Below, in pieces: positions 29,865 through 33,878 of a DNA stretch of 64,000 nt; the first letter of the stretch is position 1; every line of letters starts with the position of its first letter. A model generated the notes under the pieces. The model was not told the DNA's origin, made no database searches, and worked only from the letters and a program-made list of their open reading frames with translations. The position numbers were made by a program, and so were the translations under genes. The DNA comes from Thiofilum flexile DSM 14609 (GTDB lineage Bacteria; Pseudomonadota; Gammaproteobacteria; Thiotrichales; Thiotrichaceae), in the NCBI RefSeq assembly GCF_000380185.1, contig NZ_KB904758.1:62001-126000 (forward strand). Reading direction: 5' to 3'.

Positions 29865-30947
29865 TTAGTCAGCTCTTACAATTAAATCGTCAATTTCTTG
29901 CACTTGATAGCGAATACGCCGCATCACAGGTAATAGCCCTAGAAATATATCTAACAAATAGGGGTCGAAATGTTTACCTCTTTGCTCCAACATTAATGCA
30001 ATCGTCTCTTCCTCACTCAAGGCTAGCTTATAAACCCGCTCATGCACTAAAGCATCATACACATCCACAATGGTAGTAATACGAGCAGTAATGGGAATAT
30101 CTTCCCCCGCTAACCCCATAGGATAACCTGAACCATCCCAACGCTCGTGGTGGCAAAGGGCAATATCGGCCGCCATATCAAGGGTAGGAATATGCGAATG
30201 CTCTAACATTTTGGCACCAATTTCGGTGTGGCGCTTCATAATGCTAAACTCGGCTTCGGTTAATTTACCTGCCTTCAATAAAATCCGATCTGGCACACCA
30301 ATTTTACCAATATCGTGCATAGGCGCTGCGACACGAATATCATCAATACGCTCTTGTGACCAATTTAAAGCTTTAGCCATAGCAGCAGCATATAAACCAA
30401 TTCGCCTTACATGCGCCCCCGTTTCCTCATCTCTAAAGCTGGTTAAGCTTACGAGCTTGATAGCAATCTCTTCTTCACGCTGTTTAATTTTTAAAGTACG
30501 CCGCTGTACTTCCAGTTCTAACTCTTCACGTACTAATAAACCATTACGCATTAATTGTAAGCGCTCTACTTCTTGATAGTACTCCGACCCCATGCGTTGA
30601 ATAAATAAAACGGGTTTATCCTCGACCCATACCGCCCCGGCCTCTAAGACTAACTCTTGATGTAACTCATCTATTTCAATCCAAGGCCCTGAACGCAAGG
30701 GCGCTAAGGCTGACTGTTTCCAGTGCTCCTCGGCATCGGGCATGAAATAAGACAAATAGGAAAACGCTTCTGTTAAGGCATAGTTCTGCTCTTGGCTTTG
30801 GGAAGGTTGGGCTAATTTAAGCCAAAACTGACTCCAAGCCGGTAAATCTGACACCGCTTGGAATAAGCCGCACGGCTGGCGCACAAAGATGACCATATCT
30901 AACGCGCTATAAAGGGCTGGTAAAACCTTTGATACTACCGTAGTCAT
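29865..30947 (-). CDS. HD-GYP domain protein, probable cyclic-di-GMP phosphodiesterase
   Basis: The 360-residue protein has a variable N-terminal half of about 165 residues ending in a coiled stretch (EELELEVQRRTLKIKQREE) and a C-terminal HD-GYP domain. Metal-binding motifs are intact: ETGAHVRRIG, MHDIGKIGVPD, KRHTEIGAKML, CHHERWDGSGYP and ITTIVDVYDAL. HD-GYP enzymes hydrolyse cyclic-di-GMP. It is the last gene of the operon with the Rab-like GTPase and the OmpA-type protein (12-base gap), suggesting that their output includes second-messenger turnover; this is inference. Confidence 0.9.
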   Translation of the reverse strand: MTTVVSKVLPALYSALDMVIFVRQPCGLFQAVSDLPAWSQFWLKLAQPSQSQEQNYALTEAFSYLSYFMPDAEEHWKQSALAPLRSGPWIEIDELHQELVLEAGAVWVEDKPVLFIQRMGSEYYQEVERLQLMRNGLLVREELELEVQRRTLKIKQREEEIAIKLVSLTSFRDEETGAHVRRIGLYAAAMAKALNWSQERIDDIRVAAPMHDIGKIGVPDRILLKAGKLTEAEFSIMKRHTEIGAKMLEHSHIPTLDMAADIALCHHERWDGSGYPMGLAGEDIPITARITTIVDVYDALVHERVYKLALSEEETIALMLEQRGKHFDPYLLDIFLGLLPVMRRIRYQVQEIDDLIVRAD

Positions 30948-30959
30948 ATTACATACCCC

Positions 30960-31457
30960 CTAGACCTCGATCATTCGTTCAGCCAACGCCTGAAACATAG
31001 CGTCAACCCCCAAACCATCTTTAGCACTTGTTTTAATAATAGGTAACTGAAATGCCGCTAATTGATTTAAATGCTTATCTTCTAATAACCATTTTTCTTT
31101 AAGATCACATTTATTAAGCGCAAAAAGTACGGGAATATCCCCAGCATGCTCTTTAACGCGCCCATGCAGCATTAAAGCCACCTCGAAGGTATTAGGGCGG
31201 GTGGTATCGACTACAATAATGCAGCCCCCCGCTCCGCGTATGTAGGTGGGTTTTAGCGTGGTATAGTCATCCTCACCCGCCACATCCCAAATCATTAAAG
31301 TTAGAGCTTTGTCGCCGACAGAAACCAGCTTTTTATCGATCTTCACGCCTACCGTAGTATGGTATTTATCGCTATATAAACTACTGACATAACGCTTAAT
31401 TAAACTGGTTTTGCCTACTGCAAAGGCTCCTAATAGACATATTTTTTTTTGTATCAT
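30960..31457 (-). CDS. Rab/Ras-like small GTPase
   Basis: The 165-residue protein is a compact Ras-superfamily GTPase of eukaryotic style: P-loop GAFAVGKTSL at residues 10-19, switch I region YHTTVGVKI, G3 WDVAGEDDY, G4 NKCDL and G5 TSAKDG. The ATG at 31457 gives a standard MIQKKICLLG start, so an in-frame TTG at 31478 is rejected. Relative to Ras, the Gly12 position is Phe and the catalytic Gln61 position is Glu, so intrinsic hydrolysis is probably slow and GAP-dependent. No MglB is encoded nearby; the neighbouring membrane protein may regulate it. Confidence 0.88.
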   Translation of the reverse strand: MIQKKICLLGAFAVGKTSLIKRYVSSLYSDKYHTTVGVKIDKKLVSVGDKALTLMIWDVAGEDDYTTLKPTYIRGAGGCIIVVDTTRPNTFEVALMLHGRVKEHAGDIPVLFALNKCDLKEKWLLEDKHLNQLAAFQLPIIKTSAKDGLGVDAMFQALAERMIEV

Positions 31458-31481
31458 ATCGATTCGCCCAATCTGCAACTG

Positions 31482-33275
31482 CTAGGAGCTGGTTTGTGGA
31501 TCTAACGCTTGTAAATCCACCTTTAGAGTCACACTACGTTGCCCCTCAGACGTAGCTATTGGAGAGGTATTCGCCGCAATAGCGATTACTAATAAAGCTT
31601 TAGACACTCCAAAATTTAATAATTGGTCGACTAAACCTTGAGCACGAGCTAGACCTAGTTGTCGATTAAAATCCTCCGCACCACTGCCATCTGTATTCCC
31701 CATTAAAGTGACTTGAACGCTTAGTTGTTGTTCAGCCGCTAGTTGTTCAAGGCGCTTTAAATTTTCTGCTAGAACAGGGACTTGAATACTACCCAGTTCT
31801 GATAGCTCTGATTTGCCCCGCTCAAATAAAAACACTGTATTTTTAATAGTATTAATGGTCTGTGTTAAAGGTGTCTCTATGTCTTGGCGTATTAATTGGC
31901 TAGTATCTAGACCTTCTAAGCCCAGACTATAGTGCCAACCTTGCTCTAAACGCGTTATCCACGCTGAATCCGCACTACCACTTACTTTTAAGGTACTGCC
32001 CTCAAGGTTTAGCTCTACCCCTGCTGGGGGTTGTAATAATTGCTGTGCTCTTTGTAACGCTAGGCTCGGTTCGGCTGAAACATAAGGTTGCCATTCAAAG
32101 ACTGGATTAAATGTGGTGCGCACCTGATCGTCGAGAGTAATAGCAGTATCCGCTACTAAAGGATCACGCAAACCTTTTACTTGATAGCCTTGCTCCGTAG
32201 GCTGTGAATCTAGAATGACCACACCGGGTTGGGCATCCCATTGTGCTACGGTTTGCTCCCATAAACGTTGCTTAGCTAATAGACGTTGCTGTTCAGCATA
32301 ATTACTATAAGCCCAATACCCTAGGCCTGCTAACAATAAACCCAATAGCCCATAGGCTAACCAAGGTTTTTTACGCTGGGTCTGGGATGTTTGGCGTTGC
32401 GCTTGTAGACACTGATTTAGTAACGGCTGAGTCGTGCTAAAGGGCTGACTATCGCCGGAATAATTCTTTAGTAAACCATCATAACGCTGATGAATCGTTT
32501 CGACGGTTTGAATCAATAAGGAACGCAATTCGGCAGGCGGCGCACCCCGCACAACGGCAGCAATAGCGACATAAGGGCCTTGCTCAATTAAAACACTCAA
32601 ATCACCAAGACGTAAGGCATTTAATGAGCTTTCATTAGTAAATGAATCTGCCATAAAATCCTGAATCGCACTGAGCATACTACTCACCATATCAGGATCT
32701 TTAGCAATGGCTTGCTCTGAAACAACGTGCTGCAGCAACAAGCTAGTTTTACGATGAATTAAGAACACCTGCTCGACTTGATAGACCAAAGTCTTCATTA
32801 ACACAACTTCGGAATATTTACGTCCGGTGCGCCACGCATCAAAACGCCACCGAATCGAACGGGGTGATAAACTTTGCTCAAGTAGCTGATTAAATGTTTC
32901 TAAGGTTTGCGTGAGGGTCTCATGAATCGATTTACGAATCGCAGGCCCCATCACTGGATAGAGGGCATTGGCGACTAATTGCGGATCACGATTAATAAAA
33001 TGCTCCACCGCCTTATCCATATTGGGTGCTAAGGCTTGGGTGATGGCATTATCAGAATGAGAACGCATCTGTATTGCTTCAGCCAGTACTGAGGCTACAC
33101 GAGCGGTATAGAGATTCACATCCTGAAGCTGATTTTTAAGTGCTAATAAACCAATATAATCAGAACCTAGCAATAATAGCCGTAAACGCTCCAGATCATC
33201 GCTATCCGTCGACATAGTAGCAGCCGCATTCAATATAGAAGAGGCCTTTGTGCGCTCAGCACTCTTCATTACCAC
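31482..33275 (-). CDS. Inner-membrane OmpA-family protein with large cytosolic domain
   Basis: The 597-residue protein has a cytosolic part (residues 1-303), one membrane helix (about 305-323), a periplasmic part with BON-like repeats (about 345-470) and a C-terminal OmpA/MotB peptidoglycan-binding domain (about 478-590, with GNTDGSG and LARAQGLVDQLL). Residues 165-270 show alternating strands and helices (VEQVFLIHRKTSLLL, MLSAIQDFMADSF, LRLGDLSVLIEQGPYVAIAAVVRG) that resemble a roadblock/longin-like fold, a known type of small-GTPase partner. GTG at 33275 is favoured by GGAG six bases upstream; ATG at 33269 is the alternative. It lies between the coiled-coil gene and the GTPase with three-base gaps. 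Confidence 0.8.
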   Translation of the reverse strand: MVMKSAERTKASSILNAAATMSTDSDDLERLRLLLLGSDYIGLLALKNQLQDVNLYTARVASVLAEAIQMRSHSDNAITQALAPNMDKAVEHFINRDPQLVANALYPVMGPAIRKSIHETLTQTLETFNQLLEQSLSPRSIRWRFDAWRTGRKYSEVVLMKTLVYQVEQVFLIHRKTSLLLQHVVSEQAIAKDPDMVSSMLSAIQDFMADSFTNESSLNALRLGDLSVLIEQGPYVAIAAVVRGAPPAELRSLLIQTVETIHQRYDGLLKNYSGDSQPFSTTQPLLNQCLQAQRQTSQTQRKKPWLAYGLLGLLLAGLGYWAYSNYAEQQRLLAKQRLWEQTVAQWDAQPGVVILDSQPTEQGYQVKGLRDPLVADTAITLDDQVRTTFNPVFEWQPYVSAEPSLALQRAQQLLQPPAGVELNLEGSTLKVSGSADSAWITRLEQGWHYSLGLEGLDTSQLIRQDIETPLTQTINTIKNTVFLFERGKSELSELGSIQVPVLAENLKRLEQLAAEQQLSVQVTLMGNTDGSGAEDFNRQLGLARAQGLVDQLLNFGVSKALLVIAIAANTSPIATSEGQRSVTLKVDLQALDPQTSS

Positions 33276-33278
33276 GCC

Positions 33279-33878
33279 CTACTCCTTCACGCCATCGTAG
33301 AGTTGCTTAGCCACACCCTGCAGCATAACGGCTAAGGCTTTACGGTCGGGTTTGTCTTGGCGTAATTGTTCAATCGCTTGCTCTAACTGAGATTGGAATT
33401 GCTCACGCGTTTCGTTGAGAGTACGCTCAATGCGCTCAATACGTAGCGCCTCTTTTTGTAATAACCCTTGAGCCTCTTCAGAGTGAGACAGATGCTTTTT
33501 ATCCAGCTCGGCTAACTGCCGTCCCATTTCATCTAAACGATTCTTAATACCCTGAATATCATCACGGCGGGCTTTAGTCTCGTCTTGTAATAACTCTTTC
33601 AGCAGTTGAATTTCACGCTGCACCTGATCAAAGCGTCTTTGGGTATCTTCTGACCAAGCATTGATCGATACCCGTACAAAACGCTCTAGGGCTGCTTGAC
33701 GCTTTTCATTTTCACGTACCTGCTCGCCAAACAGAATATTCCTGACCATATCCAGATTTTGCTCTGTACCACTCACTTGAGTAGCGATCTCTGAAGTACG
33801 GCTGTTACGGATAAAATCTTTATTAGGGTCGACAGGGGCTGCTGAGGGTACGGTAGGGTTTGCTTCAGTCGTACTCAT
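33279..33878 (-). CDS. Coiled-coil protein of GTPase/OmpA operon
   Basis: The 199-residue soluble protein has a disordered Pro/Ala-rich N-terminus, a distinctive MVRNILFGEQVRENEKR stretch, and then a long coiled coil from about residue 60 to 175, ending in a short RKALAVMLQGVAKQLYDG helix. ATG at 33878 has an AAAGGAG site; an upstream in-frame start is rejected. No function is known to me. It is the first gene of the four-gene operon and may link the OmpA protein or the GTPase to a scaffold. Confidence 0.8.
   Translation of the reverse strand: MSTTEANPTVPSAAPVDPNKDFIRNSRTSEIATQVSGTEQNLDMVRNILFGEQVRENEKRQAALERFVRVSINAWSEDTQRRFDQVQREIQLLKELLQDETKARRDDIQGIKNRLDEMGRQLAELDKKHLSHSEEAQGLLQKEALRIERIERTLNETREQFQSQLEQAIEQLRQDKPDRKALAVMLQGVAKQLYDGVKE

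Follow-up and report, generated by a model that had tools for sequence, protein, structure and literature searches.

The four-gene operon at positions 29,865 to 33,878 of the window (the whole stretch of 64,000 nucleotides that was analysed) is, judged from its genes and motifs, a Group 1 Rup signalling operon with an HD-GYP output. The system is real, widely conserved and already named; the additions made here are the HD-GYP output and the assignment of a longin fold. The first-pass annotation knew no named system with this set of genes. This statement does not stand, since Group 1 Rup was described in 2014 as a neighbourhood predicted from genomes (Wuichet & Sogaard-Andersen 2014, PMC4316618).

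The operon and its conservation

The genes lie on the reverse strand in the order coiled coil, OmpA protein, GTPase, HD-GYP. The features are as follows:

33279..33878, reverse strand: coiled-coil gene (ATG at 33878, 199 aa; no Pfam match above cut-off)
31482..33275, reverse strand: longin/TM/OmpA gene (597 aa; from the N-terminus a helical region, the predicted longin domain, a single membrane helix, a periplasmic stretch and the OmpA-like end)
32388..32789, reverse strand: predicted longin domain, residues 163-296 (AlphaFold2, VIA, Foldseek)
32304..32369, reverse strand: membrane helix, about residues 303-324 (PWLAYGLLGLLLAGLGYWAY; sequence and predicted helix)
31542..31826, reverse strand: OmpA-like peptidoglycan-binding domain, residues 484-578 (PF00691)
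30960..31457, reverse strand: Rab-like small GTPase gene (Group 1 Rup; 165 aa; PF00071, 3e-33)
29865..30947, reverse strand: PAS-HD-GYP output gene (360 aa; Pfam HD_5, 6e-39)
30456..30947, reverse strand: residues 1-164, predicted PAS-like domain with a signalling helix (AlphaFold2; the helix bears the conserved Gln131 and Arg134)

Open reading frames, Pfam matches and motifs confirm the set that had been read from the letters, namely a coiled coil, a one-span OmpA protein, a Ras-family GTPase and an HD-GYP protein. Of the gaps of 3-12 bases given with it, the spacing between the OmpA and GTPase genes has to be corrected. Relatives of the GTPase begin at M(I/L)QKK and its start was moved from TTG 31478 to ATG 31457; the gap is therefore about 24 bases, and the figure of 3 was an effect of the chosen TTG start. 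A single reading frame holds all four genes, the first three of which end in TAG. This looks like chance; the start-to-stop spacing is different in one relative (L025) at least.

As described in 2014, the neighbourhood consists of a coiled-coil protein, a protein in which an unknown domain is followed by a transmembrane segment and OmpA, a Rup GTPase without the G3 Gln, and an output protein with a conserved N-terminal Gln; at that time no Rup member had been experimentally characterised (PMC4316618). All four components are common to the window operon. Its GTPase is a single-domain Ras-family protein of 165 aa (below the limit of 240 aa used for Group 1 Rup) with complete motifs G1-G5 (GAFAVGKT, TTVG, WDVAGED, NKCD, TSAK). 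The G3 motif contains the Asp (Asp58), in which it differs from MglA, and lacks the catalytic Gln, the position of which is taken by Glu62. The coiled coil, the domain with a transmembrane segment and, as is often the case, OmpA, and the output gene are all present. Gln131 would be the N-terminal Gln that is invariant among the outputs, and is a candidate for the Gln of the 2014 logo. HD-GYP is not named as an output in that paper, whereas the output in the window is an HD-GYP protein. Moreover, the 'conserved domain of unknown function' of 2014 is assigned a longin fold from our model, and only the present analysis gives the output N-terminus a predicted PAS fold. In the open-licence literature no other paper on Rup GTPases was found.

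The synteny survey proposed by the first-pass annotation showed that the gene order is conserved across phyla. The loci were collected via the OmpA protein: 80 came from a scan of named genomes, and with 40 more the total reached 138. Counted as neighbours of the OmpA-protein gene and not of the GTPase gene, the coiled coil is directly upstream at 129 of the 138 loci and the GTPase directly downstream at 112. A chance cluster is thereby ruled out. At the 17 loci found in related genomes, the OmpA-protein gene has the coiled coil as a neighbour in 16 cases and the GTPase likewise in 16, and the output gene is next in 15; the misses are partly contig ends. The 80 scanned loci belong to Gammaproteobacteria, Cyanobacteria, Desulfobacterota, Acidobacteriota, Alphaproteobacteria, Planctomycetota, Bacteroidota and Latescibacterota. 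Among sampled genomes the OmpA protein is present in 24/274 of the organism's own class, in 25/194 Cyanobacteria, and in 5/198, 11/247 and 8/149 of the phyla of a Desulfococcaceae, a Bacteroidetes and an Acidobacteriota genome, respectively. In a second, divergent subfamily from Cyanobacteria and Bacteroidota the gene order is unchanged in most cases. Pairwise distances among the four proteins correlate with r of 0.60-0.80, values that common host descent alone could yield. Four loci (L053, L055, L071 and L247) have the longin/OmpA gene and an output without an adjacent GTPase.

The OmpA protein and its predicted longin domain

A model of residues 25-335 was calculated with AlphaFold2 from 72 sequences (mean pLDDT 86). 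Residues 163-296 (model residues 139-272) have the strand order b1-b2-a1-b3-b4-b5-a2-a3. The best VIA matches include Sec22b (Z 14.7 over 124 residues, rmsd 2.4), Ykt6 (Z 13.7) and Fuzzy, a Rab23 GEF subunit (Z 13.2). These values are well above background, since best Z scores of 7-8 are common without a true match. With Foldseek the six best matches have E values of 2e-4 to 9e-4. The combined match list contains longins, adaptin sigma/mu subunits, TRAPP, Mon1-Ccz1, SR-alpha and Fuzzy; MglB appears further down among the Foldseek matches (E about 6e-3), and longins rank above it. A short helix precedes b1 in the model, and the roadblock order has a leading helix. By strand order, residues 163-296 are predicted to have a longin rather than a roadblock fold. 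They nearly coincide with the cytosolic roadblock/longin-like region previously placed at residues 165-270. The fold search envisaged there led to a predicted fold that is common to GTPase partners (longins, TRAPP, Mon1-Ccz1, Fuzzy).

In sequence comparisons no similarity between the window longin and eukaryotic longins was detected. Pfam gave neither a longin nor a roadblock match for the 72 family members, an absence that weighs little as these families are very divergent. Likewise, no longin was matched when PDB sequences were searched with the longin-protein family, which is subject to the same divergence. The large fold group to which longins belong also contains PAS/GAF domains that bind ligands (PMC4917890; PMC3521125). 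Longins themselves are discussed mainly for eukaryotes and Asgard archaea in the open-licence literature, and the table of one review enters 'Longin/Roadblock' jointly as present in bacteria. The literature covered was open-licence, and bacterial longins may have been reported earlier in subscription journals; the longin assignment is therefore only possibly new.

The longin domain may bind the GTPase; the fold it has in common with longins does not by itself imply binding. Eukaryotic Rab-longin GEF modules (TRAPP, Mon1-Ccz1, Fuzzy-Inturned/Rab23) also combine a Rab-like GTPase with a longin fold, whereas the predicted longin of the operon stands alone, in an envelope protein with one membrane span, and its GEF role is hypothetical. 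In the conservon (CvnA-D) and in MglA-MglB a Ras-like GTPase gene likewise adjoins the gene of a roadblock/longin-type partner. The conservon encodes a histidine kinase beside the GTPase, and kinase outputs occur in Rup loci elsewhere. In contrast to both systems, the putative partner in the operon is a predicted longin by strand order and is tied to the membrane. The GTPase differs as well, being Rup-like and having the G3 Asp, and the set is extended by a coiled coil, an OmpA end and outputs of several kinds.

In 112 homologues, the number of Lys and Arg residues near the membrane helix has a mean of 3.6 upstream and 2.1 downstream; the upstream count is larger in 72 of them and the downstream count in 27. 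The OmpA-like domain scores 27.2 bits (5e-6) with PF00691, which is exactly the curated cut-off (27.2) and therefore borderline. Within this fold, NTDGSG...LARA at residues 527-546 provides the Asp and the Arg that a diaminopimelate site should have. A motif resembling this peptidoglycan site is found in 90 of 137 homologues. The OmpA end is absent in L033, L034, L035, L037 and L041, while the longin part is conserved there; since some relatives have lost it, wall anchoring is not essential everywhere. In L031, L036 and L038-L040 the middle of the periplasmic part has given way to a coiled-coil-like stretch. As judged from these sequences, a wall tie by the OmpA end is common rather than universal. 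The peptidoglycan-binding OmpA end reported by the first-pass annotation is thus supported in the window (PF00691, NTD/LARA) but is not a constant part of the system.

GTPase, output and coiled-coil proteins

The best PDB sequence match of the GTPase family profile is Rab23 (5e-40). Of the 122 GTPases compared, 112 lack the G3 Gln. According to the 2014 study Rup GTPases are closest to Rab/Ras/Rho, and none is coupled to a roadblock (MglB) partner (PMC4316618). That Rab23 is the best match of the GTPase family while the longin model matches Fuzzy of the Rab23 GEF is suggestive only. Covariation between the GTPase and the longin protein placed 25 of the 60 top pairs in the switch regions, compared with a background of 23%. 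When the four-protein set was analysed, the coiled-coil control reached 17/60, the same as the longin protein, and the output protein 24/60. Elsewhere in the genome, several large proteins of about 850-980 aa on contigs C1, C10, C13, C14 and C46 match the Ras family; these are possibly Roc-type GTPases.

The metal-site motifs of the HD-GYP domain (HDIGK, HHERWDGSGYP) are intact and agree with HDIGK and HHExxDGxGYP of known c-di-GMP phosphodiesterases, so that a c-di-GMP phosphodiesterase is predicted. It differs from other HD-GYP phosphodiesterases by a dedicated PAS-like N-terminal domain that is common to other Rup outputs. Residues 1-165 were modelled by AlphaFold2 with a pLDDT of 94. The model matches PAS/LOV domains (best Z 8.4), which points to a PAS fold, with Gln131 and Arg134 on the long signalling helix. 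The first 140-160 residues of the output protein are found again, either at the beginning or further inside, in outputs of other classes, including kinases, GGDEF/EAL proteins, adenylate cyclase, sigma-54 activator and SpoIIE phosphatase. Among 89 non-redundant output genes there are 33 with HD-GYP, a class whose share is inflated by the denser sampling of relatives of the window, 33 with HATPase, 12 with GGDEF and 7 with EAL; sigma-54 activators (3), nucleotide cyclases (3) and SpoIIE (2) are rarer. One PAS-like domain with many outputs agrees with an input module able to drive any output joined to it. For the divergent outputs, HMM-HMM comparison with the PAS domain gave a probability below 2%; most of these outputs keep a Gln within a similar motif at the PAS end, which is the only similarity left.

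Gln131 is kept in 82 of the 88 outputs that have a residue at this position. The authors of the 2014 study speculate that the N-terminal Gln of the output makes up for the absent G3 Gln (PMC4316618). Two related loci, in which the operon lacks the GTPase, have Lys at output position 131. At three further loci, where G3 carries Lys/Arg, this position is Arg, Arg and Gly. All these loci represent few, related events. Eight Leucothrix-type GTPases possess the G3 Gln, and their outputs retain Gln131 too. Strict complementation is weakened by these loci with both Gln residues, and in this form is not supported. In L071 and L247 Gln131 is retained without an adjacent GTPase.

The coiled-coil protein has the motifs VRNILFGEQ (residues 45-53) and LRxDKxDRKxLA (near the C-terminus). 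An N-terminal motif is common to this protein (VRNILFGEQ, about 33720-33746) and the longin/OmpA protein (LRLLLLGSD, about 33165-33185). A loose pattern, written post hoc, occurs in 123 of 130 coiled coils, 100 of 138 longin proteins and 15 of 1664 other open reading frames; a profile alignment over 27 columns gave a probability of only 16%. A common docking site is possible.

Proposed mechanism and wider meaning

The reading to which we give a cautious preference, and which we hold to be somewhat probable, is that the longin/OmpA protein controls Rup, which in turn acts on the PAS-HD-GYP protein. The longin/OmpA protein would span the inner membrane and be tied to peptidoglycan. By analogy with the longins of TRAPP, Mon1-Ccz1 and Fuzzy-Inturned, its longin domain would bind the Rab-like GTPase and thereby position it or alter its nucleotide state. 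GTP-bound Rup would then engage the PAS domain and the adjoining helix of the output, which would change the HD-GYP activity and consequently the local level of c-di-GMP. The output may also lend Gln131 in trans to a GTPase with Glu at the catalytic Gln site; if so, engagement of the output would also terminate the signal. The coiled-coil protein presumably acts as a scaffold or localiser. Both the binding and the direction of the signal are inferred.

It is unlikely that the longin/OmpA protein instead serves as a wall-tied landmark and brings the GTPase to a site such as pole or septum, as for MglA in Myxococcus, with HD-GYP as one of several clients and the nucleotide state set elsewhere. 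The MglA-roadblock precedent (PMC4316618), the coiled-coil component and the many outputs carried by the same module would fit such a landmark; in many loci, however, the output gene is as near to the GTPase gene as the longin gene is, and the outputs have one dedicated N-terminal domain in common. PAS domains usually sense ligands, and in a reading with reversed flow the sensor-like output protein would control the GTPase, which would then itself be the output. The 2014 authors liken the system to the conservon, for which they posit the GTPase as the output (PMC4316618). We regard this reversed flow as quite improbable, because the catalytic part varies between c-di-GMP, cAMP, kinase, phosphatase and transcription outputs, as would rather be expected of the last step in a pathway.

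A comparably low probability is given to the longin-like domain being a small-molecule or lipid sensor that does not bind the GTPase, the partner of which would be the coiled coil. The fold group does include ligand-binding PAS/GAF domains (PMC4917890; PMC3521125), and covariation does not favour the longin region. Nevertheless, the model matched longins, adaptins and subunits of TRAPP, Mon1-Ccz1 and Fuzzy (Z up to 14.7) and not PAS or GAF domains, and the pairing with a Rab-like GTPase is constant.

A longin domain in the protein encoded next to the GTPase, if confirmed, would be the partner that Rup GTPases had been missing and would give bacteria a Rab-longin pair. It would also mean that one switch links cell-wall attachment to the control of c-di-GMP, cAMP, phosphorelay or transcription. 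The system is testable, since it occurs in cultivable genera, e.g. Thiothrix, Nostoc and Mesorhizobium. A bacterial ancestor of Rab/Ras/Rho was proposed in 2014 (PMC4316618). As a speculation that we consider rather doubtful, the membrane-spanning longin could be a dedicated regulator of Rab-like GTPases in many phyla. The Rab-longin pairing known from eukaryotic traffic would then have been present in bacteria as a signalling module of the envelope, and eukaryotes may have acquired it with the Rab/Ras/Rho ancestor.
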